Assembly (NCBI GenBank): GCA_030248225.1
Contig: JASANE010005309.1
Span: 1 to 64,000 of the forward strand
Length of the DNA: 64,000 nucleotides
Direction: 5' to 3'
From: Trileptium ribeirensis
Lineage: Eukaryota; Nematoda; Enoplea; Enoplida; Thoracostomopsidae
Below are positions 2,340 through 55,200 of this stretch, one piece after another. Each line of letters begins with the position of its first letter. Position 1 is the first letter of the stretch. The translations under genes were made by a program, and so were the position numbers. Below the pieces are notes generated by a model, which saw nothing but the letters and a program-made list of their open reading frames with translations, was not told where the DNA came from and did not search any database.

Positions 2340-2640
2340 TTGCAACAATACGTTCCCCGGAACCTAGCAGCTTCTCCGGAAGCTACCCACGGGTTACAAG
2401 CTGTCACTGTTTACGGATAGATCTAGGGCGGTATGTGATTCTTCGAACCACTACCTTTAGTTCATGATTAATGAAAAGATTCAAGCAAATGCTTTCACAG
2501 TGATTCACTTCAAGTCAAGTATATCACTTCCAAAGTTGTAATACGAATGCCCCCGTTTGTTCTCTTACTGATTTCTTCGAGTATCGGAACGCAAGAGAAT
2601 AGAACCGAGGTCTAATTTCATTATTCCATCCAACACTCTT
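2340..2640 (-). pseudogene. 18S rRNA central portion, divergent
   Basis: The minus-strand 18S match resumes here: the CGTTCCCCGGAACC block at about 2352, AGGGCGGTATGTGATT at about 2426, TTCATGATTAATGAAAAGA at about 2460, AATACGAATGCCCCCG at about 2540 and GAACCGAGGTCTAATTTCA at about 2602. Sequence similarity stops at the non-LTR retrotransposon fragment, which seems to have inserted here. Confidence 0.7.
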
Positions 2641-2649
2641 CAGCCAAAC

Positions 2650-3446
2650 AGTGGTGGTTGGAATAATTGTGGCAAGGGCGTAGGGACAAACGCCTTACTG
2701 TGCAATCGCTGTGGAAAGTGGGTGCACTTTCGATGTTCCGGCCTCAGAGCGCCCCCTCGTTCAAACGCCAACTTTACATGTCGTGAATGCCAACATCCTA
2801 CTCATCCTGACACTGAACTCCACGTTGACGACAAAAAGTTCGATATTGTGGACAGGTTCACTTATCTTGGAGACACAGTCGACTACAGGGCCGATGTTAA
2901 GCGAGCCGCCAGGGCTCGAAGTCAGGCAGCTTGGATGAAATGGAAAGAGCTCGCCAGTTTGCTAACTGACAAGCGACTGCCGGCCAAAGTACGTGGAAAG
3001 GTATACCATGCGTATATCCGGCCAGTGCTTGCCTATGCATCCGAATGTTGGGCACTCACGAAGGAAGTTACCGTCCCTCTACTCACAACCGACAGAAAGA
3101 TGATGCGGTGGATGACCGGTGTGCGATGGGAAGACAGGAAACTTAGTGAGCAGGTGCAGCCACACTCGGCCTTATTTATGCCGCTGGAAATAGAGCTGCA
3201 AATTCGAAGGCTACGGTGGTACGGTCATGTGCAGCGGAGGACGACTGGAATAACGAAAATGGTTGCAGGTGTCAAATTCCGAGGGATAGCACCACGTGGA
3301 ACACCCAAGAAGAGGTGGTGGAAGAAGATATGCGATTGATGGGTCTGCGAAAAGAGGACATCCAACACAGGGATAAATGGAGAAACGCGCTGAAATCATG
3401 GTACAGTCGAACCCGTTGCGCAAGCGATGGAACCAATCGACTCTAA
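2650..3446 (+). pseudogene. Non-LTR retrotransposon fragment (zinc finger + RT C-terminal region), frameshifted
   Basis: The reading frame opens with a PHD-like zinc-binding segment (CNRCGKWVHFRCSGL about 2701-2745, then CREC) and runs into the typical region after the polymerase core of metazoan LINE-type reverse transcriptases: FTYLGDTVD, then VYHAYIRPVLAYASECWAL, MMRWMTGVRWEDRKL, RRLRWYGHVQRR and PRGTPKKRWWKK. The frame hits a stop at 3337-3339. The conserved continuation (LMGLRKEDIQHRDKWR) is found in another frame ending at 3446, so there is a frameshift near 3330. No YADD catalytic core is present, so this is a dead 3' fragment. It interrupts the 18S-like sequence. Confidence 0.8.
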
Positions 3447-37200: not shown

Positions 37201-40200
37201 GCGTAGCGACAATTTCTAAAATGTACGGAGATAACGGTCAAACTGCTTTCATTGAAGACGCAGCGTGTAACTATACGCTTAAAAATGCGACAGCGGAAAC
37301 ATCAAACGTATCAGGTGAACAACAATTTGTGGTGTGTGGACGAAACGTATATGAAGAGTATATTTTGCTTTCGGAAATATTCGACTATGCAATTAGTGCG
37401 GCAAACAGATGGATTGCCTACAACGGTGTCGATGTTGTCTTGACCAATGACAATTATTGGTATTGCAACTCAGAGATGGTAAAAAAATTATCGTTTTCTG
37501 TCAAGAGCAACCTAACAATTATTGCTGCTAAGGTTACAATCTTACCTAAATATATAAATCTTTAAAAATAATGCAACTTATTCGAGTTTTTAGTCGTATA
37601 TTTAGATTATTTAAAGTATATGTGTCGAAAGTTGGTCGGCTGAGGGTAAGTGGTGTTTTCGCTGAGGAAAAGTGGTGTTTTCGCTGAGGAAAAGTGGTGT
37701 TTTCGCTGAGGGGAAGTGGTGTTTTCGCTGATGGGAAGTGGTGTTTTCGCTGCGGGGAAGTGGTGTTTTCGCTGCGGGGAAGTGGTGTTTTCGCTGCGGG
37801 GAAGTGGTGTTTTCGCTGAGTGGAAGTGGTGTTTTCGCTGAGGGGAAGTGGTGTTTTCGCTGAGGAGAAGTGGTGTTTTCGCTGAGGGGAAGTGGTGTTT
37901 TCGCTGCAGGGAAGTGGTGTTTTCGCTGAGGGGAAGTGGTATTTTCGCTGAGGAGAAGTGGTGTTTTCGCTGAGGGGAAGTGGTGTTTTCGCTGAGGGGA
38001 AGTGGTGTTTTCGCTGAGGGGAAGTGGTGTTTTCGCTGAGGGGAATTGGTTTTTTCGCTGAGGGGAAGTGGTGTTTTCGCTGAGGGGAAGTGGTATTTTC
38101 GCTGAGGGGAAGTGGTGTTTTCGCTGAGGGGAAGTGGTGTTTTCGCTGAGGGGAAGTGGTGTTTTCGCTGAGGGGAAGTGGTGTTTTCGCTGAGGGGAAG
38201 TGGTGTTTTCGCTGAGGGGAAGTGGTGTTTTCGTTGACGGGAAGTGGTGTTTTCGTTGACGGGAAGTGGTGTTTTCGTTGACGGGAAGTGGTGTTTTCGT
38301 TGACGGGAAGTGGTGTTTTCGCTGAGGGGAAGTGGTGTTTTCGCTGAGGGGAAGTGGTGTTTTCGCTGAGGAGAAGTGGTGTTTTCGCTGAGGGGAAGTG
38401 GTGTTTTCGCTGAGGGGAAGTGGTGTTTTCGCTGAGGGGAAGTGGTGTTTTTGCTGAGGGGAAGTGGTGTTTTCGGTGAGGGGAAGTGGTGTTTTCGGTG
38501 AGGGGAAGTGGTGTTTTCGCTGAGGGGAAGTGGTGTTTTCGCCGAGGGGAAGTGGTGTTTTCGCTGAGGGGAAGTGGTGTTTTCGTTGACGGGAAGTGGT
38601 GTTTTTGTTGAGGGGAAGTGGTGTTTCCGGACAGAGGACTCATTTAAGTAAACTTTGTGGCAAATTTGGCTTATTGCAACCCTTGTCCAATTTAGATTGT
38701 TGATTAATAATGTGCAGGTATAGCACAGAGTTTTCGATGAGGTAAGTGGTGTTTTCGGACAAAAGACTCATTTAAGCAAATTTTGTGGCAAATTTGGCTT
38801 ATTGCAACGCTTTTCCCATTTATTTTACATTGTTGATTAATAATGTGCAGGTAAAGCATGGCGTCCTCCCAAGCAGAAACCGTTACCGCATCTATGCTAA
38901 CATGCCCAGATTACACACCGTCAGATTATAACGTGCTGTCTGGCAAACGCTGAAAACAATGCGAAAACTGTAAATTACAAAGTAAAGTTCAATTGTGGAG
39001 CATAAATGGCAAAGTATTAATAATATCAATAATAAGCATTCCTTTGGAGTCTAATATTTCAGTGCGGATTTGATATAAGCGCGAATCATGTATCACGTCA
39101 CACAAGCAACATGTGCTCGTCAGCAGAGAACGCACAATCTAGAGGATCGTATGTTGCGGTTTTTGGAACTATGGATTCTGGACTGGCTGTTATGGACGGC
39201 ATGCTATTCGGAAGGTCAGTAAATCTAACCAGCCTTGCATTTGATGTATATAACGCAGTAAAATTTCTGGAATCTTGAAGCCTTATAATGCTGGTCCGAT
39301 AGGATTTAACGTACCATCGTATTCTGGGGGTCACAAATCCTGTAAAGTTAGTTTTTTTGCCAAGAAAACTACCTATATATAACCAAATAAGTGATGACAG
39401 ACTAAATATTATACAGATCTATCTAAATCCCCGGAAAACAACATAGTGTGGAAATTTGGTTGGTGGGCATTATTGCCATTGAAAACCACTCAAAAGCGAC
39501 GGACTCAAGATAATTAAACCGTCGTCACCAAAAAGAAATATATACAGACCATTCTTGATGCAAAACAACATATCAAATAAATGACAGATTATTTTGAAGA
39601 CATGATTCTGTCGACCGCAAAACGGCAAAACCCTTCAAACCCCAATAAAGGTATAATATAGTTAAGTTGGACTCTAGCTTAAAAACCATCGTATTCATCA
39701 TGATTTATAAATTTAGACACATTCGTTTATTGGCAATAACACAATAACATTCTGAGAACTGAAGATGTCCGAAACACAGCGCCCAGGGAAACGCCTACTC
39801 TGCTAAGTTGTAGATTTTTAAGACCAGATTCCTGCGATCGTCATGGTTTTTTGATGTAATGCCTGTTAAGCTAGATATGAATTCAGAAACACAGGCCCTA
39901 TTATATCGGGTTTCGGCAAAGAACCGTAGACAGTGTTTGGCCATTTTGACCTGGAAAATTGGTCGGAGTTTTTAACGTCCAACTAAAGGGCATAGCGTCA
40001 TCGCTTTTGCTATACAACAGATTTTGTTGAAATCCATTCACCTGAAGACGAGTTATGACTGACAGCGAAAAAATTTCACGCTTTTGCTTCATAGCGTTTT
40101 CTATTGAAAACTGCAATCGCTTCACTTGCGCCGTTGGAGGCAGCTTTTTATTGTTTCAGGAACAATTCAAAAATCAAACAATTTGGGAATTTACTTTAAT

Positions 40201-43200
40201 AAGTTGCAGCAATTCCAGCAGTTGAGAAACATATTTAACAAAATTTAGTGCCATTGAATGTTACTTGATAAAACTTGGACCAAGTGAGTACTTTGCGCAA
40301 ATTTAGTGCCATTGAATGTTACTTGATAAAACTTGGACCAAGTGAGTACTTTGCGCAAATTTAGTGCCATTGAATGTTACTTGATAAAACTTGGACCAAG
40401 TGAGTACTTTGCGCAAATTTAGTGCCATTGAATGTTACTTGATAAAACTTGGACCAAGTGAGTACTTTGCGCAAATTTAGTGCCATTGAATGTTACTTGA
40501 TAAAACTTGGACCAAGTGAGTACTTTGCGCAAATTTAGTGCCATTGAATGTTACTTGATAAAACTTGGACCAAGTGAGTACTTTGCACATGTGTAAACTT
40601 AGTATATATACCAATATAATACTGATATGTATCACGATAATTTTTTCGTGTGACACTAATAGAGTCAAAATTCAAACTCTACATGACTGTTTACGGCAGA
40701 CCGTTAACATCTATAATTTGGAAATCTTTCAAAACGATAAATCCACCATTCGTTTATGCTTTTATGATATATAGCTTCAGTCTGGCTGAAAAAAATTGCC
40801 TGGTTAAAATGCCAAATTCACAAATACTGACTTGCGAAAGTGTCATTTCCGATTTGGTGAAATGATGGTTGGTGTAGTGTAGTTAATGATTGTAGATCGT
40901 TTGCCAAATTACTCTCCCAATAGATTATTTGTACATGCTCAAATGGGGACAGGAGAACTATCGCTCTGAGGCTGGGACCCTTCTTCGGGGCGTCGCCGAT
41001 ACTCCGTTGGAAGGTAGCCTGATCCTTCCTGAGGCTCCGCACCCCTCCCGCCCTACGCACTACCCAAACCCCCCCCCCCGACCTTCGGAACTCGTCCATC
41101 CACGATATTATTACTCACTAATTCGATCTTGAGGTTCTGCAGTTAAGTGAGTAAGAACTGTCGCATGCCTTTATGTATTGTTTTAGTTTGTGTGACATTC
41201 GACTAATCCCATTACGTGCGAAAATAATGATGCAAAGTCTATCAAAAGAGCTTAGTCATTCAGCATTTGTAATACGGTTCGTGTAACCTTTAGGGGCCTG
41301 ACATTATAACGTTATAAAAAATAACAGCTTCGAGCGGGGGTTCGGGGGCGGCAGCCCCCGAATAAGGCTTAGGCTTAGTACATGGCTCATATAGAAATTT
41401 AGCTTAGGCTAAGACTAAGGCTTAGGCTTAGTACATCGAGAACGGGATAGCATGCATTTCATTTCCGCCACTAAAGACACATTGGCCTGTAATACTATCG
41501 AACCCCGCAGCAATTGCTTAAATAAAATATGATAATTTATACTTTAACATTAATGTTTTAATTAAAAATTTCTTAGAGAAACTAACGCTAACGCTTAGCT
41601 AAAATTTGGTTTTTAAACGTAAGCCTTTTATGGTAGGTCACTGACTGAGGAGACCTAAAGCATCTGGGTTTGTTCTACGCCATATCCTCATATCACAATA
41701 TGTATACACAATCTAATAAAGAAAAGACTGTTAATGTTATCTGAACAGTTGTAATTATGCGAAATGGCTTTTAGTTAATACGTTGAATTCTGTTTTTAGC
41801 AAATGCATTCCGTTTTTTTCCTGTTGTTGCAAGCACAGCCCAGCTAAACTACAGTGACTACACAAGTCGTAGTATACCGTCCGATGAAAATCAAGTGAAC
41901 GTAATTCTGCAACTACTTTATCAAATTAAAGTAAACTTCGTATCTGTTGTTTATGATAAGTCATTTTATGGCTCTGGCCTGTTCTACGAGTTCCAAAAAT
42001 CTGTCACCGATCGAAAAAGAAATATTGGTGGCGTCTGTATTGATGCTGCAATTCAGCTTCCGACAACACGAGACGTGAGTTTTAAAACTATGGTTTCAGG
42101 TAATTTTGTGAATAGAGATTTATATAACTTTTGCCTTACAGTGAAATGGTAGCTAATTTTGTGTACTCACACGAAATCAGTTCTATGATTGTACGTATTA
42201 ACAGTTATACGATGAAATTTTCGAAATAACGAAAGTATTTGGTGCATGATATCAACGTTCATCTACCGACACAGATTGGGCTTCGCTCTTTCGTTGCCAA
42301 CTGGGCAGTGAATTTATTTTGCTTTAAAGCAATATTTTGAACTATTTTTGAGTTTCCTGTGATATTATTCTCGTATTGATCGAAAGCTTTTGTTCAAGTG
42401 GCTCTAACACAAATGTTTACTGTTTAAGGAATAAAAAGTGTTTTCCACGCTATAACTAAGCAATTACTACTAAAATTAACTAAACCACACGGAAACAAGA
42501 ATGGCTTTATACGTAGTGCAAGTTTCCTCTATTAGCTAGCATACATTTCCTGTAGTTTTTTTAGTTAGTAAATTTTTGCATAGTAGTAACTACAGGAAAT
42601 TTATAGTTCTGGGAATTTATAGTACTGGGAATCTATTTATAAATATTTGTATTTAGCAGTACAAGGAATTTATAATAGCTAGTTGAGGAAATTTGCACTA
42701 CGTATAGAACTTTTTGGTTCCACGGTGTTTAGTAGATTTTATGATCGATTAGCATCGCGTTGAACTTGTGATGCTTCTACATGATAACAATTTTGCACGT
42801 TTGAGCCTTGGTCACAGTGTTTTTGTAGGCGTCTATCAGGAAAATTGCAGGTATAATCACTGTAGCGATTAACGAGTTAATAACTAGTTGCGCAATTATA
42901 AACATAATTTATTGCGGGTAATTTAAGGTTAGTTTGCTGTTTATAGCTACAATCTCAGTTGGATAAATACGAAGATTTTCGATGCACCTAACACTACAGT
43001 TTACTGCAAGCGCATTAATAGTTTCAAGCAAAACTTTAAAGTTTGACAAAAACCCTAAAATTCGTTATTCTTGAAACACATTCCTTAATAAATTTAGTTT
43101 CCAGCATGATAAGCCATCTCGTGAACTGGTAGCTTACTAAAGCAGAATTGCACTACAGCGATGGTTATAACCAAAAATGACAGTTCTCTCCAATTTCTTT

Positions 43201-46200
43201 ATTTATATATGATGCGTTTCAGGACTAATACAATCCAATTAATAAATTTGTCTGTAATGTCTCCCGTTCACGAAAACCGATTAAAAATAATAGACATATT
43301 TAAGAAAAAATAATTTCGTAACTTGGTGTCATCTTCATAAATAATTAAAGAATGACTTTGCTCAAATTTTCAATGTAATGAAAAAGACGAAGATGCTACA
43401 GAATACTACTGCATGGGCAACATCAGTTAATGTACAATAAGTGCACAAGAACGGACAATTTGGCACAAAATACGAACGATGCCTGCATTTCATGTATTAC
43501 GATCGAGTATTTCCGACATATTGCTCTTCAACTAAGTATTGCTAACATCCTAACCGGTTACATTTCTAAATTCAATGGTTTCCGCGAAACATCTAGTACC
43601 GAATATGGACAATAGTTGAAATAAGTAAGATAATAACGAGTTAACGAAGAAGTGCTACCGAATGGCTAGTTCAAAATAAATTCTTCGATAACCGATAGCT
43701 GTTATTACAACGAAGGTTGCTGCCATATGCCTTCGACAAATGACAAAACTGTACGCAACTATAGCGAACAGAATCACAACATATACTTCGAGAAGACATC
43801 ACAGGCCTGATAAAATAAGAAATTAGATCTAACTTTTGATATATTTCCCAAGTATTCTTTACTTTATAGGCTGCTTCGTATCTGACAATATTTGAAGCTT
43901 TGGCCAATCGCTCTCGAGCTTTGGTAGTGTTTATGAATGAAGACAGTATAGCCAAATTGTTCACTGTAGTGCAACAACACCATTACTGGCGACATATAGC
44001 TCAGCAGTACTTGGAAAGTTTCCTAATTATTACTGCTGACAATGTGTATCGTGAAAATTTTGGTCAATTCGATGTATCGAATAGTATAATATCGATCCAA
44101 CCGGACGTGGAATACAGATTCTTTGACAATGCAAACTATCTCGAATATATTAGACATATTAGTTTGGAAATGGCATTGAAATATCGTAAAAACAACTTTG
44201 TACAGCTTATTGCTGAACAAAATCACTGCCAGATAACCAGTGATCTAACAAGACAATATTACTATAGTCAATATTATTCAAGGCGTCTCGATATGTCATA
44301 TAAGGAAAACGGTGAAGCTAATGAAACTCAGTATCAATTGCGTAAATGTACGAACGAAATGCGACTCATTGATCGTAATAAAATTCACGATATATCGCTA
44401 ACAGCAGCGAAATTTGCAGCAAGCACAATACACAATTATGCAAATACAATCATCGAAATTTGGAAGAAGTCACAGTCGAATAAACACGAGTTTTTAAAAT
44501 ATTTTACTGGAGCATCAGTTGTGGATCACATGAAACAAAAGCATGAAAACAGCGATCATTACTATTCAATTTTCCAATTTGAACAGTGCAAGTGTAGCGA
44601 TAGTGGTGTGTGTTTTACTAAAATTGCAAATACCACACTGAATATTTTTGACAACTTAATGTTTACTCCAGGCTATAATATAAATGAGACAATCCCACAA
44701 ATGAAATATGTTTACGAGACACAGGCCAAGCTGTGCAAGCGGCGTAAATGTTTGAAAGACGACAACCATCGATACTCAGTTAGTTTAAACTGTCGTCGAT
44801 GTATTAGTTGTCCAAGTGTCTTCTATATGGTCGAGGACAATCTATATTGTAAAAAATGCCCTCAAGGAACAATACCAGATGATTCGAGCAACGGTACGAG
44901 GTGTACTGATTCGAATGCTGTCGATCGAAATTACATTGTGCATTATTTGAAGTACCCCGTTATTGTACTTCTAACCAATTCGATTATTGGTATTTTAGCA
45001 TCGCTTGGTTCTTGTTTTATTCTGGTTGCCTATAGAAAATCGCCAATAGCTGTCGTTTCAAATCCCGCAGTTCTTTGTATCAATGCAATTGGCGCAGCAA
45101 TGTTGTATATGCTCAGTTTTAGTGCTTTACACATATCCAACGCTGGATGCACATCAGCATGGATTCTGCTTCCTATGTGTCTCTGTGTTATTGCATCGGC
45201 GCTTTTTGTTAAAATTTCTGGTTATACGTCATTGCGGTTTCCACCAGCCGCTAATTCCACACTTAATAATACCAAACGTATTACAATTATTGCGATATGC
45301 TGTATTTGCGCTATTCAAACAATCATTTCGTTCGGTGAGTAGACTATTTAACTTTGACTACGAACTAGCCTAGTATCAGTCAATATCTTCTAATACAAAC
45401 ATTAGACACTTTACTAGTTTTACTGGTTTAGTGCGATATTCTATCTTTGTGCTATTCAAACAATCATTTCATTCAGTGAGTAGACTATTTAACTATGACT
45501 ACGATCTAGCCTAGTATCAGTCAATATCTTCTAATACAAACATTAGGCACTTTATTAGTTTTACTGATTAAGGCGATATTCTATCTTTGTGCTATTCAAA
45601 CAATCATTTCGGTCCATCAGTAAACTATTTAACTATGAGTACAAACTAGCCTACTATCCGTCAATATCTTCTAATACAAACATTAGGCACCTTACTAGTT
45701 TTACTGGTTTAGTGCGATATTCTATCTTTGTGCTATTCAAACAATCATTTCATTCAGTGAGCAGGCTATTTAACTATGACTACGAACTAGCCTAGTATCG
45801 GTCAATATCTTCTAATACAAACATTAGGCACTTTACTAGTTTTACTGATTAAGGCGATATTCTATCTTTGTGCTATTCAAACAGTCGTTTCGGTCGGTGA
45901 GTAAACTATTTAACTATGAGTACAAACTAGCCTACTATCCGTCAATATCTTCTAATACAAACATTGGGCACCTTACTAGTTTTACTGGTTTAGTGCGATA
46001 TTCTACCTTTGTGCTATTCAAACAATCATTTCGTTCAGTGAGTAGACTATTTAACTTTGACTACGAACTAGCCTAGTATCAGTCAATATCTTCTAATACA
46101 AACATTAGGCACTTTACTAGTTTTACTGATTTAGGCGTATTCTATCTCTGTGCTATTCAAACAATCATTTCGTTCGATGAGTAAACTAACCATCAGTACA

Positions 46201-49200
46201 AACTAGCAAACTATCCGTCAATATTTTCTAATACAAACATTAGACACTTTACTAGTTTTACTGGTTTAGTGCGATATTCTATCTTTGTGCTATTCAAACA
46301 GTCGTTTCGGTCGGTGAGTAAACTATTTAACTATGAGTACAAACTAGCCTAGTATCAGTCAATATCTTCTAATACAAACATTAGGCACTTTACTAGTTTT
46401 ACTGGTTTACTGCGATATTCTATCTTTGTGCTATTCAAACAATCATTTCGGTCGATGAGTAAACTATTTAACTATGAGTACGAACTAGCCTAGTATCAGT
46501 CAATATCTTCTAATACAAACATTAGACACTTTACTAGTTTTACTGATTTAACCGATATTCTATCTTTGTGCAATTCAAACAATCATTTCATTCGGTGAGT
46601 AGACTAACTATGACTACGAATTAGCCTACTATCAGTCAATATCTTCTAATACAAACATTAGGCACTTTACTAGTTTTACTGCGATATTCTATCTTTGTGC
46701 TATTCAAACAATCATTTCGGTCGGTGGATGAGTAAGTAGAAATGCAAGCAACACAACTATCTGTCTATAATAATCAATCAACATGTCCTAACGCAAGCTT
46801 TAAGCGTTTCATCAGTTTTCCCAGTTTATTGTGATATGCTGTCTTTGTTTGGTGAGTAATTAGGAATGTCAACAACTCATTTAGATTTCTATGATTATCA
46901 ATCAATAACTTGTAATCAAAACCTTAGGCATTTTTCAGTTTTCCTGACTCATTTTATTGGTGCGAGTCATAAATTCAGCAATAACAATGTTCCTTCCACT
47001 ATTGCCAGAAATCAAAGTTATTTAACTGTACTACGTATGGTAATCAAATTCTTGACTTGCTGAGTTTGAAAAACTGACAACTACACTTTATCGTAAGGAA
47101 GAAAACAAATAAATGGGTCAATTTTTCACTAAATTTTCGATTTTAAAATGTGCGTGTAAAGTATCATAATTTTAATTGTGACTTATGATAAATAATATAA
47201 AACTGTGCATCAACTATGTCCCACGTTAGTCGTATTACTTTTACCGCGCATTCATAGAATTGCATGCACGGTTCTGCAGGTTTTGTGCTTAAATTCACGT
47301 AGCTGCATTCGTTTGAGCTAATCACAACAAGTAGAACTCTCTGCATGCACTTCAAGCTATGCTGTTAATTAAAAATCACTGGTAACCAAATGTAGCCATG
47401 GGATATCCCTACATATTTTCGAAGTTTTAAACCGGAGTCTAAGCATCATTGCCTATGATAAAAAATTGTATTCAATTGTGATATTTTTATTTATAGTTTT
47501 GCTATTTACGGTTCCTGTTGGCGTAGATTTTGTCGAAGACGAATATCGTCCGAAATATTATGCCGAGTGCAAATGGTTTCAATCTAAATCTTTGCCAAAA
47601 TTATTGCCGTCAGCAATGCTATGTCCTTCAATTTCACTCGCATCTGCAGCTTTATTCGGATACCGTAGGCCGAAAGTTTATTTTAAGTTTATACAACGCG
47701 AAATCAGATGCGTAATTGCAGGCTCGTTTGGCTGTTTTGGAACGTTGACGTGCATTATGCCGTTGGTACTGTTTATCGAAACATCACGATATGTAATTTT
47801 TTGGTTTTGTATTGTTATTATCATTGATGCAAATATTGTTCTTATACTATTGGTACTGCCGACTACAGTGACACTTGTTCTCAAACGTGGAACGAATACA
47901 TGGAAATACGTAATGAAACAAGTAACCGATATTGGGCCTGGAGATGTCCTTTGGAATTCGACTGTTGCAAAGCACTAACATATTCAGGATTAAATCCGTA
48001 AGTTTCTATAGGAAGTAGGTAGTTACCCACTCTAACCCATGCTTACATCCCTTCCGCTAGCACCACCTAGTTGCCCGCTAACAGTGTTGGATTATTCGCC
48101 GCACCACGACCCCCCACGCCTCCCCGCGCCCCCGGCGCCGGCTTTAAAAATTGCAGCAATTTTGAGCAATTTCGATATTTTATTTTTATTAATGAGAAAT
48201 TTATATATTTTCCAAAACTGACCTTCCCCCGCGCCACCATCTACACTCAAAGTCGACGGACCTATGACTCACTGTGGATAATACATTTGTAAGTGTAACC
48301 GAAGTAACAAAGAAAACCACCAGGTAAAAACCAGATAACAAAACACTTCAGTTAATACCAGAACTTTATTAACAAACGAGGTAAGTGAGTACGAATTTAC
48401 CAAGTGAAAATAACAGTGAATAAGTGAAGCCAACTGACTGACGAGCTGACGAACTGACTAACGAACTGACTTTTGAAATGAAAGATCATCAGTTATATAT
48501 TGTCGGAGACTCGTCCAGATCTGATGCAAATCAGATGTAAAACGTATGCAAATCAGATGTCATACGTTTCGCCATTGTTTACGCGACGTGTTCGCATTAC
48601 AGAACCCCCTTCGTATTAAGCGGAGCGCCGACGTCCGGAACGGGTGTCCAGGGCAAAACGCACCGTCTTCTTTGTGGGAGTCGTGAGATCCGGAAAACCG
48701 TCGACATGGCGATGAGCGAGTTCCAGCGCCTGACGAAGATCGCGACGTTTGATCGGCCGCTTTGCTTGATCGAGTGACCGCATGGTGGAGCGAGGGACGT
48801 ACGCCAGTCGATTTGTCCCAAAAAACTTGACCGCTACGGCGTTAGGCGGCCTTCGACGGTCCGCGAGCTCGGTGTCGTCGGGCGAGATGACTAGCGCGGG
48901 CCAGTGTGGCCAGTTCGGGAACTTCGCGAGGATGACGTCGCCGATTGCGGGTCGTTGGATTGCGTTGTCATCGCGAGGTTGTGGAGCGGTTGGTGTTGCA
49001 TCTGTGGCGTCGTCGTGAATGAAAGCCGGCTTGACCCGATCGAGGCTGATCGTGTCCTCAGTACCTCCGATCTTCACGACCATGACTTTGTCGTCACGGC
49101 TCTTGACTTCGAACGGCCCGCGGAAGCGTGGCTGGAGAGCGCCTTTGACCGCATCGTCCCGTACCCACACGTGAGTGGCGGTGAGAAGATCCTTCGGGAC

Positions 49201-52200
49201 GTGCCATGGGGTTAAATGTCGACGATCGGGAGCGTTGAGGCGGCTGACGGTAGTCTGCAGTGTTCGCACGAAGTCGGAAACGCTCGTGTCGTTAGGCGTG
49301 GACGTTGGTGCGAAGTAGCAATGAGGTAAGTCAACGTTCGCGCCAAAAACCATCTGACACGGTGTGAAACCCTTGTCGTTGAGCGCCGACCGGATGCCGA
49401 GCAGGACCAGTGGTAGCGATTGCGTCCAGGTCCGGCTGTTGCAATGGGCGCGAAGACCGGTCTTGAGCGTCCGGTGAAAACGTTCGACCGCGCCGTTACA
49501 TGCCGGATGATAGGCAGTGGTGCGCCGACGCTCGATTCCAAGCTGTTCCATGAGTGTTGACCAGAGAGCGGACTCGAATTGTGCACCGCGGTCGGAGATG
49601 ATGACGCGTGGAACGCCGAAGCGACTGACCCAGCCGGAGATGAGGGCGGAGGCGACAGAGTCGGTGGTGATGTCCGGGACCGGGATGGCTTCGGGCCACC
49701 GGGTAAACCGATCGATCACCGTGACGAGGTATCGATTGCCGAGGGAAAGTGGGAACGGCCCGACGATGTCGATATGGATCGTGTGGAACCGCCCCGGCGT
49801 CGGAATTGTTTTGACCGGAGTCTTCGTGTGGCGACTGACCTTGTTCCTTTGACACTCGAGGCATTCGCGGCACCATTGTTTGACCTCGCGGTTCATGCCA
49901 GGCCAAACGTAGCTGCTGGCGACTTGGTAGAGGGTTGCCCGGGAACCCGCGTGGCTGAGGTTGTGCGCGGCGTCAAAGATTTTTCGTCGCATGCTGGACG
50001 GGACGTAAGGTCGGAGTTGCATCTTTGAAGCATCGCAATGAATTGTCCCACCGTTGACCGTCAGCTGCTTGATGGGTAGGGTCGTACCTTCGAGGAAACG
50101 CATAAGGTCGTCGTCGGCTGCTTGGGCTGCCGCCAGTTCGTCGTCGAACGTGGCGGTGATAGCGCACACTGGACGGGATAGGGCGTCTGCCACGACATTG
50201 TCGGCGCCTGCAACGTGCTCGATGTCGCAATCGAACTCTGAGATGAAGGACAACCATCGAGACTGCTGTGCGGAAGGATTCGCCATCGAGAGAGCGTTGA
50301 CGAGTGGCTTGTGGTCGGTGCGCACGGTGAAATCGGAGCCGAGAAGCCACGGGAAGTGCTTCAGGGCTTTGTAGATTGCCAGAAGCTCCCGGTCGAACGC
50401 GGATTTGCGGGATTCCAGCGGTGTTAGCTTCTCCGAGTAGAATGCTAACGGCTCCGCGTTGCCATCGACCACTTGGTTGAGGACAGCGCCCACGGCGGCG
50501 CCGGACGCATCAGTAACGAGTTGAAGTCGACCTGCGGGGTTGGGGAACGAGAGCTTCACCGCGGCAGCAACGGCCGATTTGAGTGCATCGAATGCCTGGC
50601 GGCTGTCGTCCGACCAGGTTAAACTAAAGTTGCCTTTACCAGCTTTACCCCGTATCAGGTCGGTGAGAGGAGCGGCGATCCTTGAAAATCCCGGAATGAA
50701 TCGGTGGTAGAAGCCGGCCATACCCAGGAAACCGCGCAGGAGCTTCGTTGTTTCCGGGCACGGATAGTCGAGGATGACCTTGACCTTGGACGGTATGGGC
50801 CGGACGCCGTTTGCATCGACCTCAACCCCGACGAAGTTGACTTTGGGGCTGAACAAAACGCACTTGTCCGGGCGAAGGCGGAGACCATGGTCGTTGAGGC
50901 GGGTGAGGACCGTCTTGAGGTGCTGCAGATGCTCGTCGTTTGAGCGGCTGGCCACCAGGATGTCGTCCAGATAGACCTTGACAAACGGTAACTCACCCAG
51001 GACCGAGTCCATAAGCCGCTGGAAGGTTTGAGCGGCGTTGCGAAAACCGAAAAACATCCGCCTGAACAGGAACAGGCCGAACGGAGTTGTGACGGCCGTC
51101 TTAGGTTGGTCCTGAACCGCCACAGGAATCTGCGTATAGGCGCAGACGAGGTCCAGCTTCGAGAAGACAGTCGCCCCGTGAAAATCGCCGGAGAGGTCCG
51201 TGAGGTTGGGCATCGGGTAACGATCGGGAACCGTTTGACGGTTGAGCTTTCGGTAGTCACCAGTCGGGCGGTAGGGAGTCTTGGGGTCCGCCTTTGGGGC
51301 CATGTGTAAAGGTGACGCGTAAGGGGACTCACCACGATAAACGATGCCTTGCTGCTCCCACTCGGAGAAAACCCGCTTTGCGATCGCCAGCTTTTGTCCA
51401 TCAAGGCGACGTGGGCGGTCGAAGCACGGCGGTCCCGTGGTAACGATGTGGTGTTCGATGCCGTGGAGAGCCGGCGAGAAGGCATCGATCGGCTCGAAGA
51501 TGCTCGGGAATCCGCGGAGGAGCTGCTTGATCCTGGTTGTCTCAGCAGGTATTTCGACTCGAACGCCCGATGGTATCGATTCGGGCTTCGTGGTTGTCGC
51601 GCAACAGGCCGCAGGAGGCTTTGCGGCTGCTGCCGGGACCAGGCGGTTGTTGACGCAGTCGACCGCGAAACCGTAGTGCCGGAGGAAATCCCGGCCGAGG
51701 ATCGGATGGGCGACGTTGGCGACGTAGAAAGTCCAGCTGAATTGCTGATCAAAGCCCGCGAGCCGGAAAGTTAAGTCGACCGGCTTACCGTGGCGTTGGT
51801 GGAAGGTAGTGGTGTTCGGCGCTTGTAAGGGGTGCAGGAAGGAAAGCGAACTCCCGCTATCGGCGATGAAGCGCCCGACTGAAGTTGCATCGACGAACAC
51901 AGCGTTGACAGCCCCACCGCTTGCTGGCACGGCGGTGGGGGCTACTCGTTTCCCGGACCGCTGGCGGGGCCGGACTCCGCGTTGAATGAGCAGAATTGGG
52001 GCCCTTGGCATCGTTGTGCATTGGCCCCGAACTTCCCATGATACCAGCACACCCCCGGCGTTCGTTGACGTGATTGAGACCGTGGCCGGCGTCGTTGATC
52101 ACCGTGGCGGCCACCGCGATAGTTGCCGTTCGCTCGTTCTGGCGACCTCCGATTGCTTGAGCCGCTGCGGTAGGACAGCCTGCGGACAGCTGCTGCCAGG

Positions 52201-55200
52201 TCGCTGATTTGCTGCTGGATCGAGGCCTGCCAGGGATCTGTCGTCGTCGGTGTTGAGCCTGAACGGGGAGCTCGATTGACCTGGCTGACCAACGCCGGAT
52301 CGGCCATCTCCATCATGGTGTCGGCGATGCGGGCCAACTGCTCGAGGGAGACGTTGTCCATTGAAACCAGCGTCAGCCGGATTTGCTCGGGGAGGATCTC
52401 GAGGAAGCGCAGGCGGACGAGATCCTGACTATTCGGAGCCAGCTCGAGGAGTTCGCGGAGGGCGCTCGATGGTTTGCGCCCCTTGAGGTCCTTCTCGGCG
52501 AGGAGCTTGCGGAGCCGCCGGTTGTCGCTGTCGGCGTAGTAGTTGATCAGCGTCCGCTTGAGCTCGCCATAGCCCGCGTTGAGGTCGACCCCCGACTCGT
52601 GGACGAGCGCGTTGTCGATCACCCGAAGGACGTTTCGCTTCTTGAGGTCGTCGTCGATTGAACCGAGGATTTGTTCGACCTGGTTGAACCACGACTGCGG
52701 TGTCTTCGGGTTGAACTGCGGCAACTGATAGAATTGACCTGCGGTAGCGCTCGGCTGTGGTCGTTCGATTTGACTTGGTCCAGCGGTGGTTTGAAACTGA
52801 ACAATGGCCAGCTGGCTGTGTGCCAGTTGCAGGACATCAGGCCCGAATGGCGTGAGCTCCGTGATCATCTCGTCCCGCGTCGGTGGCATAACGAACGCCT
52901 TGTCACTTGCCTTGAGGAGTTGTAGCATCCCGGCCAGCGTGTCCTTGGTTTGTTGCGACAGATTGACCGGCCCGGGATTGCGCTCAACGCCGCCGATGAC
53001 CAGCAGGACCCGCAGGCTGGTTGCCTGTCGTCGACCGAGACCTTGACCCGAGCAACCAGGGAGATGAAAACCGATGAAACTGGGGAACCCCGGATTGACT
53101 GTACCTGTGACCAGCATTCTCGACCGTCGCCACTTGCTTTGACCGGAGCCCTTGAATCGACCATTTGACCCGGAAACAACAGCGACCGTTGACCAGGGGG
53201 CTTCGACTTGAGGGACCCGGGGTACCGCGACCGTGTCCAGGACCGTCGAGGTCCGGACCACAGGAGACCTGAGAACCGCCAGTGCCAGCCCAAAAAGAAC
53301 CGGCAGGACCCGAAAGAGGGAAGGCCGGCGTGCCCGCGTCGGCGTGTCGGCGTGCTGGCGTGCTCGCGTCGGCGTCGACATCAGAAGATTTCGTTATTAC
53401 TAGTCGGGTTCACCATTGTAAATGTAACCGAAGTAACAGAGAAAACCACCAGGTAAAAACCAGATGAGAAAACACTTGGGTTAATAACAGAACTTTATTC
53501 ACGAACGAGGCAAGTGAGTACAAATTCACCAAGTGAAAATAACAGTGAATAAGTAAAACGAACTGACTGACAAACTGACGAACTGACTTTCAAACTGACG
53601 AACTGACTGACAAACTGACGAAGGGACTTTTGAAATGAAAGATCATCAGTTATATATTGTCGGAGACTCGTCCAGATCGGATGCAAATCAGATGTAAAAC
53701 GTATGCAAATCAGATGTCATACGTTTCGCCATTGTTTACGCGACGTGTTCGCATTACACCCCCGTATTATTTAATCGAAATTCTGCCAGCGTTATTTGTT
53801 ACAATTAGAGATCTGTTTGGTTAAACGATATCTCTCCGACCCGACCAATATGCGTTCATATATTCAAACACTTGATAATGGTATAAACATTTCTTGGCCG
53901 TGGTACACCCATACCCATACATGTTCAAGGTTCGCAGTCCCAGGGGTAGCCGGGTTCCCAAGAAGGGGAGGACTTCGGCCTCTCAGTCGGATTTCGGCGA
54001 GCCGGGGTGTGCAGTGCCTGCGGCGCCGCGAAAAGCACATATTGGTTCGGCGTCTGCGGCCACAACCATGGGGGTCGGACCTCGGGGGGACGGGAGGTTA
54101 ACCCTACCACGACGAGGATGCATGCCTTACCCCACCAATATTGACAAACTACGATAAATTAAAAACATGGGTAAACAAACCTAATTCGTAGTCGCTTACC
54201 TCTGCGGTTGCAAAAAGCGTGCATTTAGGTTCGCGTTGTGGATGCTGACTAACAAGCTTGTGACACACGTTAATCATTCCGGGCCAAATTGTATCGATCT
54301 GAAGTAAAAAATACACATCTCACCCTTTAAAAATTTAAAGCACATGAACGACGTGCAGAACTGACGAGATGACCACAATTAATTACGATTAAGTTGACAA
54401 TGGGATGCAAGGCAGTGCAGTATCTTGTCGAATGACGCAAAACCTTCTTGAGGAGTGGTATACAACGGGCTTGTGATTTCGTATCGGACCATCTTTTCTG
54501 ACGTATTTTCTAATTACTGATGTGGTGGGAGTGAAGTAATAGCAAGTATAGGTCTATCAACAACGTGAAAATTAGCTCATACAAACAAAATCTAATAGGA
54601 ATCACGACATTCCGCTATTGAATACAGAATGTAGCTTGTAGAGGCAGAAGGTAAACTGCTGCTAACCAAAATGAATAGAAATAACTGGTAATATTTTATG
54701 GCTTGTTTTCGAACAACATGATACGCGTCTAGCATCGTTTTCATTCAATTCAAAATAGCCGAAGAGTAAGTATCGCGAATCTTAGCTGTGACATAAACAA
54801 CACTAGTATCCCCTTACCCTATCGTGAAACAGAGCGAGCGTGGCCCAGAATGAGTGTAATCTGTAAGTGTCCGTACGCTTCGACAGCAGCAAAACTGCAT
54901 ACCTATATGGAACATCGGGTCGACAGACCCGTGAACAGTTGAAGATAAGAAGATCAAGTTGGTGTGTAGACAGCAATACCCTTGCACTTTATCGGAAACC
55001 TCTACGGATAATTAGTATCGCCCTGAAGGCAATACTTGACCAAATAGAAGACAGACGATATTTGGAAAATTCCTACAGTTCGAGCCTAAAGACTTCAAAC
55101 TCCTGAAACTGGGATAGTTTTGGTGAACATTCTGTAACACAATCACCTAAGTCAGCGTGCTCGAGATCCTATATAGACCATTCTAAGTGCACTGAAAGCA

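Follow-up and report, generated by a model that had tools for sequence, protein, structure and literature searches.

A Ty3/gypsy retrotransposon clade with a PWWP domain behind its integrase, predicted to read H3K36 methylation

The window analysed here is the whole stretch of 64,000 nucleotides at positions 1 to 64,000 of contig JASANE010005309.1, from the genome assembly of the nematode Trileptium ribeirensis (GCA_030248225.1). It contains on its minus strand a long terminal repeat (LTR) retrotransposon (48288-53758) whose integrase is followed, in the same open frame, by a PWWP domain. The analysis supported a real PWWP domain fused to a Ty3/gypsy integrase, conserved and under purifying selection, and carried by elements lying on one branch. 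It is probable, at roughly 0.65, that these elements are a Ty3/gypsy clade whose integrase-borne PWWP binds H3K36me2/3 nucleosomes, likely steering insertions into transcribed chromatin.

The PWWP domain and the element that carries it

The pol open reading frame (ORF) of the window copy (48616..52098, minus strand, 1160 amino acids (aa)) is open, with no stop, and its Pfam domains are RVT_1, both RNase H models, H2C2, rve and PWWP. The last of these was located at aa 1053-1130 (48709..48942, minus strand) by its match to PF00855 (E=1e-10, 42.4 bits against a cut-off of 25.6), and the same piece searched in isolation reached E=9e-13. The original prediction, which had proposed a PWWP after the integrase from its PHWPA and FFGT motifs and had suggested a profile search and a fold prediction, was borne out in these respects, both motifs being found in the domain. 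The interval that it had given (48766-48945) spans most of the domain, but the C-terminal helices continue to about 48709. In a phmmer search of the PDB, the PWWP of HDGFL2 was the best match of the window copy (E=2.8e-7), followed by LEDGF and HDGF. A five-strand barrel with helices was predicted by an AlphaFold2 model and its Foldseek/VIA matches, and the PWWP fold can be regarded as a confident prediction; a single-sequence AlphaFold run was uninformative (mean predicted local distance difference test score (pLDDT) of 47). PF00855 was matched in 27 of 27 copies from this genome at E up to 0.01. A chance PWWP match was rejected on the grounds of the predicted fold and the conservation. A chromodomain or other known tail was likewise set aside, as no such Pfam family lies at the PWWP position, and no chromodomain family was found at E up to 1 in the window pol or at E up to 0.1 in ten relatives.

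A complete D,D35E integrase and a GPY/F module precede the PWWP, as had been claimed. The integrase comprises an H2C2 zinc domain (core of the match at 49852..49965, minus strand; PF17921, E=1.1e-18) and a catalytic core (49474..49776, minus strand; PF00665, E=5.6e-13) in which 35 residues separate D836 and E872, and the GPY/F module (49021..49119, minus strand) runs from GPFEV (aa 994-998) to DRVKPAF (aa 1020-1026). Farther upstream in pol, the YLDD motif region of the reverse transcriptase was located at 50953..50973 (minus strand) by Pfam and motif reading. A DSG protease motif is also present, with no protease Pfam family among the pol matches. The order of reverse transcriptase, RNase H and integrase, the D,D35E triad, the GPY/F module and the LTRs place the window copy among Ty3/gypsy elements. 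The 5′ LTR (53417..53758, minus strand, 342 bp, TGTAATG...TTACA; repeats D4/D5) and the 3′ LTR (48288..48601, minus strand, 314 bp) were aligned to each other and agree at 308 of 326 ungapped positions, 18/326 differing, with a further 34 gap columns, in an alignment that extends about 11-17 bp beyond the LTR ends. The element further has a gag ORF (51942..53393, minus strand, 483 aa from stop to stop), with a weak DUF7041 match (Pfam PF23055, 25.2 bits, below the cut-off of 28) and a CX2HX9CX5C zinc motif (51990..52049, minus strand), a variant of the CsRn1-type CHCC motif. The flanks of the copy (48240-48300 and 53740-53800) hold no matching 4-bp target site duplication, and its aa 1000-1160 are identical to those of another copy (C11086). 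Recombination between copies would explain the unmatched flanks and the 18/326 LTR differences despite an intact pol, as well as the identical C11086 tail. A tRNA gene scan of the window found none.

Distribution, selection and origin of the domain

In the 687 Mb of this genome (20,229 contigs), a search with aa 1000-1160, in which 150 of 631 candidates were scored, yielded at least 150 matches of 100% to 35% identity, some of them several pieces of single copies. Because this query selects for the domain, the search was repeated with the integrase core and GPY/F only (aa 731-1029), and 131 of 5508 candidates, those nearest the query, were scored. Open frames of at least 1000 aa were present at 42 integrase matches (two with one stop inside the match), of which 22 were already among the aa 1000-1160 matches and extend into the PWWP, and the remaining 20 all carry it (E from 2.7e-8 to 9e-37, with a profile built from 21 earlier rows). 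In three of these 20 (L053, L054 and L058) the frame is broken within the PWWP. The domain is thus present in 42/42 long-frame integrase matches, the shorter-frame rows having been only partly checked. A genome search with PF00855 scored 150 of 777 candidates, every one of them above the cut-off. Among 12 of these matches that were fetched, seven had the same integrase tail and five were other ORFs with an N-terminal PWWP; the PF00855 total is therefore not a count of the PWWP-integrase clade.

ORFs with an N-terminal PWWP in this genome are L096/L103 on C8546, L097/L104 on C448, L098, L099 and L100. In L096 a 2A-like peptide stands immediately before the PWWP and the rest of the ORF matches DUF7869 (E=9.8e-12), while the remainder of L097 has no Pfam match, and the L097 ORF seems to be repeated, to judge by its equal scores at C448, C2882 and C5865. 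These ORFs may be a second mobile family into which a PWWP was recruited.

The original prediction had named as refuting outcomes the lack of a PWWP match or fold and a domain confined to this copy; neither was the case, and the domain was also found in proteins from other contigs. With a profile of 11 pol parts (A1), 7979 candidates were scored and 5480 proteins matched at E up to 1e-10. In the best 120 of these 5480, nine proteins (P0002-P0008, P0010 and P0011), all in the top ten, combine PF00855 with rve. The other member of the top ten, P0009, has no PWWP, and from P0012 downward the domain was found in 0/110. Where the name of a PWWP-free relative reveals its organism, this is always an animal; flatworms, a nematode and a pseudoscorpion are among them, and one more is presumably a sponge sequence, judging by its name prefix. 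Protein searches that used only the PWWP end, either from the window copy or from L050, returned nothing at their E limits although the whole-profile search succeeded, which indicates that word-based tail-only searches miss real relatives. No relative was found in scans of viral and prokaryote contigs, nor any PWWP-named entry among the best 50 matches in BFVD.

Purifying selection on the PWWP across related elements, which the original prediction had proposed to test, was supported by the ratio of nonsynonymous to synonymous substitution rates (dN/dS), calculated by the Nei-Gojobori method in 22 pairs that share sequences. In the ten pairs with a PWWP dS between 0.5 and 3, the dN/dS of the domain was 0.08-0.34. 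In the same pairs, values were 0.25-0.76 in the linker before it (6 measurable), 0.32-0.80 in the tail after it (8 measurable) and 0.04-0.15 in the integrase core, which is tighter than the PWWP where both were measurable in a pair. The short-framed L022, L023 and L027 are probably decaying copies. Mean pairwise identity among 21 own-genome rows, a set that contains near-copies and two broken tails, was 0.47 for the PWWP, 0.46 for GPY/F and 0.19 for the linker.

The phylogeny was built from the end of the reverse transcriptase, RNase H and integrase (window aa 450-1028), with the PWWP excluded and with own-genome rows picked via the PWWP-based search. A quick tree (69 of 132 aligned rows) and a careful one (37 rows) both placed the 21 PWWP rows together with P0009 on one branch, with support of 91 in the Shimodaira-Hasegawa-like approximate likelihood ratio test (SH-aLRT) and of 83/84, respectively. 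On these sequences two changes, one gain and one loss, would suffice to explain the presence of the PWWP. The next neighbours of this branch are the PWWP-free P0013, P0014 and P0017, and the PWWP clade with these three was split at 100/100 from 12 CsRn1-like PWWP-free relatives, in a tree that does not include CsRn1 itself.

In P0009, P0013, P0014 and P0017, a short linker joins GPY/F to an RxVxF-like peptide at the C-terminus; many of the CsRn1-like relatives end in TRSGRxVxF or W and some have neither, and the PWWP elements have the same GPY/F and C-terminal ends with the domain in between. Since the PWWP-free relatives keep both GPY/F and the RxVxF peptide, the simplest reading is that a host-type PWWP was inserted once into the linker between these two older parts. 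In a profile comparison for the donor gene, HDGF-family chains came first among entries with one matched stretch, and one NSD2 and one DNMT3B chain, each via two matched stretches, scored higher.

Predicted target choice, accompanying peptides and surroundings

A methyl-lysine cage was predicted at F1060 (48919..48921), W1066 (48901..48903) and F1092 (48823..48825; all minus strand), which we take to be the equivalents of M15, W21 and F44 in LEDGF numbering. Its columns are mostly kept. In the 27 copies of this genome the first residue is F in 24, Y in one, M in one and V in one (aromatic in 25/27), and the second (W) and third (F) are invariant. In a 21-row set that takes in the nine proteins from other contigs, F, W and F stand at the three positions in 17, 21 and 19 rows.

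The PWWP would bind H3K36-methylated nucleosomes together with DNA, as the PWWPs of LEDGF and HDGFL2 do, and would tether the assembled intasome to them in cis, a task that in lentiviruses is performed in trans by the LEDGF bridge. The outcome would be insertions in or near gene bodies. According to the consulted parts of PMC8149907, LEDGF binds H3K36me3 through its PWWP and HIV integrase through its opposite end, and active genes are favoured by HIV-1 integration.

Several observations weigh against this reading. The first cage position lacks an aromatic residue in P0008 and P0010 and is V and M in L033 and L036, the third is L in P0010 and P0011, and PWWPs can also bind DNA or other marks. 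Support for the whole PWWP group is only moderate in the careful tree (83/84), and P0009, which has no PWWP, lies within the branch, paired with the PWWP-bearing P0008 at 97/97. In an approximately unbiased (AU) test, holding the 21 bearers together without P0009 gave p=0.062, and there may accordingly have been two PWWP gains. The dN/dS pairs are not independent, seven of them are saturated, and five near-identical ones (0.36-3.35, with very few changes) are uninformative. The window copy itself, finally, does not lie in a visible intron.

The most serious alternative, which we nevertheless consider unlikely, is that a genuine PWWP, kept by selection, serves chiefly to bind DNA or nucleosomes, or to read another mark, and in this way aids nuclear retention, intasome assembly or strand transfer with no gene-body targeting. 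The domain is indeed strongly basic in 21/21 rows (isoelectric point 9.0-11.8), and cage positions 1 and 3 deviate in 4/21 and 2/21. To judge by the titles of works referenced in PMC8149907 and PMC11054761, respectively, nucleosomal DNA binding drives recognition by the PSIP1 PWWP and the Tf1 chromodomain modulates integrase activities. Pure DNA binding does not obviously need the cage W and F that are invariant in the 27 genome copies, although these residues may be structural. Quite improbable is a PWWP that directs insertions elsewhere, for example into intergenic or silenced chromatin rich in H3K36me2, where harm would be avoided. Some PWWPs prefer H3K36me2, those of NSD2/NSD3 and DNMT3B likewise match the family profile, and the two higher-scoring chains of the donor comparison belong to NSD2 and DNMT3B; the closest PDB chains for the window copy, however, are of the HDGF/LEDGF family. 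A functionless, one-time pickup of a host gene fragment by this copy or subfamily, conceivable for so common a host domain, is ruled out by the 42/42 long frames, the nine proteins from other contigs and the dN/dS values of the ten informative pairs.

The predicted reading of H3K36 methylation could be extended to the integrase tail, which in the window copy holds the C-terminal RVxF-like peptide KKTVRF (48655..48672, minus strand). Such a motif was counted in 32/40 integrase tails against a mean of 3.6 and a maximum of 11 in shuffles. The idea that it is specific to PWWP elements was dropped, because PWWP-free relatives have it too. A loose form of the SILK-like peptide was present in 9/40 linkers of related rows (L040, L047, L051, L052, L055, L056, L059, L069 and L070), against a shuffle mean of 0.8 and maximum of 7. 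By eye, it also stands beside RVxF in P0013, P0014, L091 and L092, as in KGILKIDAGSRTPLRRVAFMV of L091. RVxF and SILK are a docking motif pair of protein phosphatase 1 (PP1) partners, and we tentatively propose, at somewhat less than even odds, a clade that combines an in-cis H3K36-methyl reader directed into gene bodies with a tail RVxF, in several subfamilies joined by a SILK-like peptide, which may dock host PP1 at the insertion site. No description of an RVxF/SILK-like integrase tail was found among the literature matches listed.

A further short motif is a 2A-like ribosome-skipping peptide, VLLVIGGVERNPGP, identified by motif reading near the N-terminus of gag (52968..53009, minus strand). 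An NPGP peptide was present in 19/20 gag-side stretches of relatives (L071-L090), in the fuller form GD[VI]ExNPGP in 11 of the 19. No 2A-like peptide in gypsy or other LTR elements was found in the consulted parts of PMC12846837 and PMC5009743, the candidate papers that were opened.

The gene beside the element, on the plus strand, is class C G protein-coupled receptor (GPCR)-like by Pfam and its ORFs (43870-45342 and 47373-47978), with matches to 7tm_3 (31.0 bits, just below the cut-off of 33.5) and ANF_receptor (27.3 bits, cut-off 25.4). Its last exon-like ORF, which by itself matches no Pfam family, appears by eye to supply the rest of the membrane helices and has its stop codon, TAA, at 47976-47978. 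The claim that the copy lies inside an intron of a gene was not upheld, as the 3′ LTR begins at 48288, downstream of this seemingly complete receptor gene. The element stands 309 bp past the stop codon in opposite orientation, hence near a gene, a single case that proves nothing. The last visible intron of the GPCR-like gene is filled by a tandem repeat of about 141 bp (45287-46681), with exon-end-like sequence within it by eye. Elsewhere in the window, an ORF at 2572-3339 (plus strand) encodes a PHD finger (E=1.6e-6) followed, by eye, by an apparent non-LTR reverse transcriptase end, and 40183-40646 is an array of 58-bp direct repeats whose inner register copies are 99-100% identical.

Comparison with known systems

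No description of a PWWP-bearing LTR element was found among the listed matches in 5.39 million open-access full texts. The claim that no Ty3 clade with this domain has been described holds within that scope, which excludes Repbase, Dfam, preprints and most subscription papers, and an unpublished or database-only description is possible.

The elements of the CsRn1 clade (CsRn1, PwRn1 and AgCR) have the pol domains and GPY/F in common with those described here. Their hallmarks are a tRNA-Trp primer site, a gag CHCC motif and a 4-bp target duplication, and neither a chromodomain nor an envelope was found in PwRn1 and AgCRs, according to the consulted parts of PMC2582038, a paper that nowhere contains the word PWWP. 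PWWP-clade elements, by contrast, have the PWWP after GPY/F and a 2A-like peptide in gag. The strict gag CHCC (CX2HX9CX3C) was present in 6/20 relatives and the CX5C variant in 3/20, with no zinc motif in the fetched stretch of 11/20. The window copy differs from CsRn1 in having the CX5C variant and no visible 4-bp target duplication. Its TGGTGAACCCGAC after the 5′ LTR has one mismatch in 13 to what we take to be the tRNA-Trp end, and hence is near a tRNA-Trp primer site. Because of the CHCC variant, the near primer site by this assumed tRNA end and the lack of a visible target duplication, the PWWP clade is termed CsRn1-like and is not filed as a member of CsRn1.

Another likeness is to the Ginger1 transposases, in which a gypsy-like integrase has gained further domains at its C-terminal end, including, in at least one of these transposases, a PHD finger. 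Ginger1 elements, however, are DNA transposons and carry protease domains of the OTU or Ulp1 type, and the word PWWP is absent from PMC2836005, on the consulted parts of which this comparison is based.

Chromoviruses resemble the present clade in that GPY/F is followed, at the C-terminal end of integrase, by a fold of the kind that reads histone marks, presumably with a role in choosing targets. Theirs is a chromodomain, whereas the window clade carries a PWWP with H3K36me2/3 as its predicted mark. Chromodomains have H3K9me2/3 as their mark, and gene-body targeting, if true, would be the mirror image of the heterochromatin-bound chromodomain elements. The PWWP clade has a chromovirus-like layout and is not a chromovirus, because no chromodomain was found. 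We also take it to be distant from chromoviruses on the Ty3 tree, the trees built here having no chromovirus in them.

The known routes of target choice are host tethers (LEDGF and BET proteins), Pol III factors and built-in chromodomains. An element-encoded PWWP, if true to its prediction, would open an independent route to active chromatin, complete in itself, and would raise the question of how an element directed at host genes is tolerated. The diverged subfamilies, the PWWP-free P0009 and the PWWP-free neighbours form a natural experiment, in which one could ask whether insertion preference depends on a reader domain alone. In lentiviruses, a PWWP likewise stands between chromatin and integrase, and HDGFL2 and LEDGF are the nearest solved relatives of the window PWWP. 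LEDGF, however, is a host protein that acts in trans, whereas the window element encodes its PWWP in one open frame with the integrase, a natural counterpart of the artificial reader fusions that, in the consulted parts of PMC8149907, retarget retroviral vectors.
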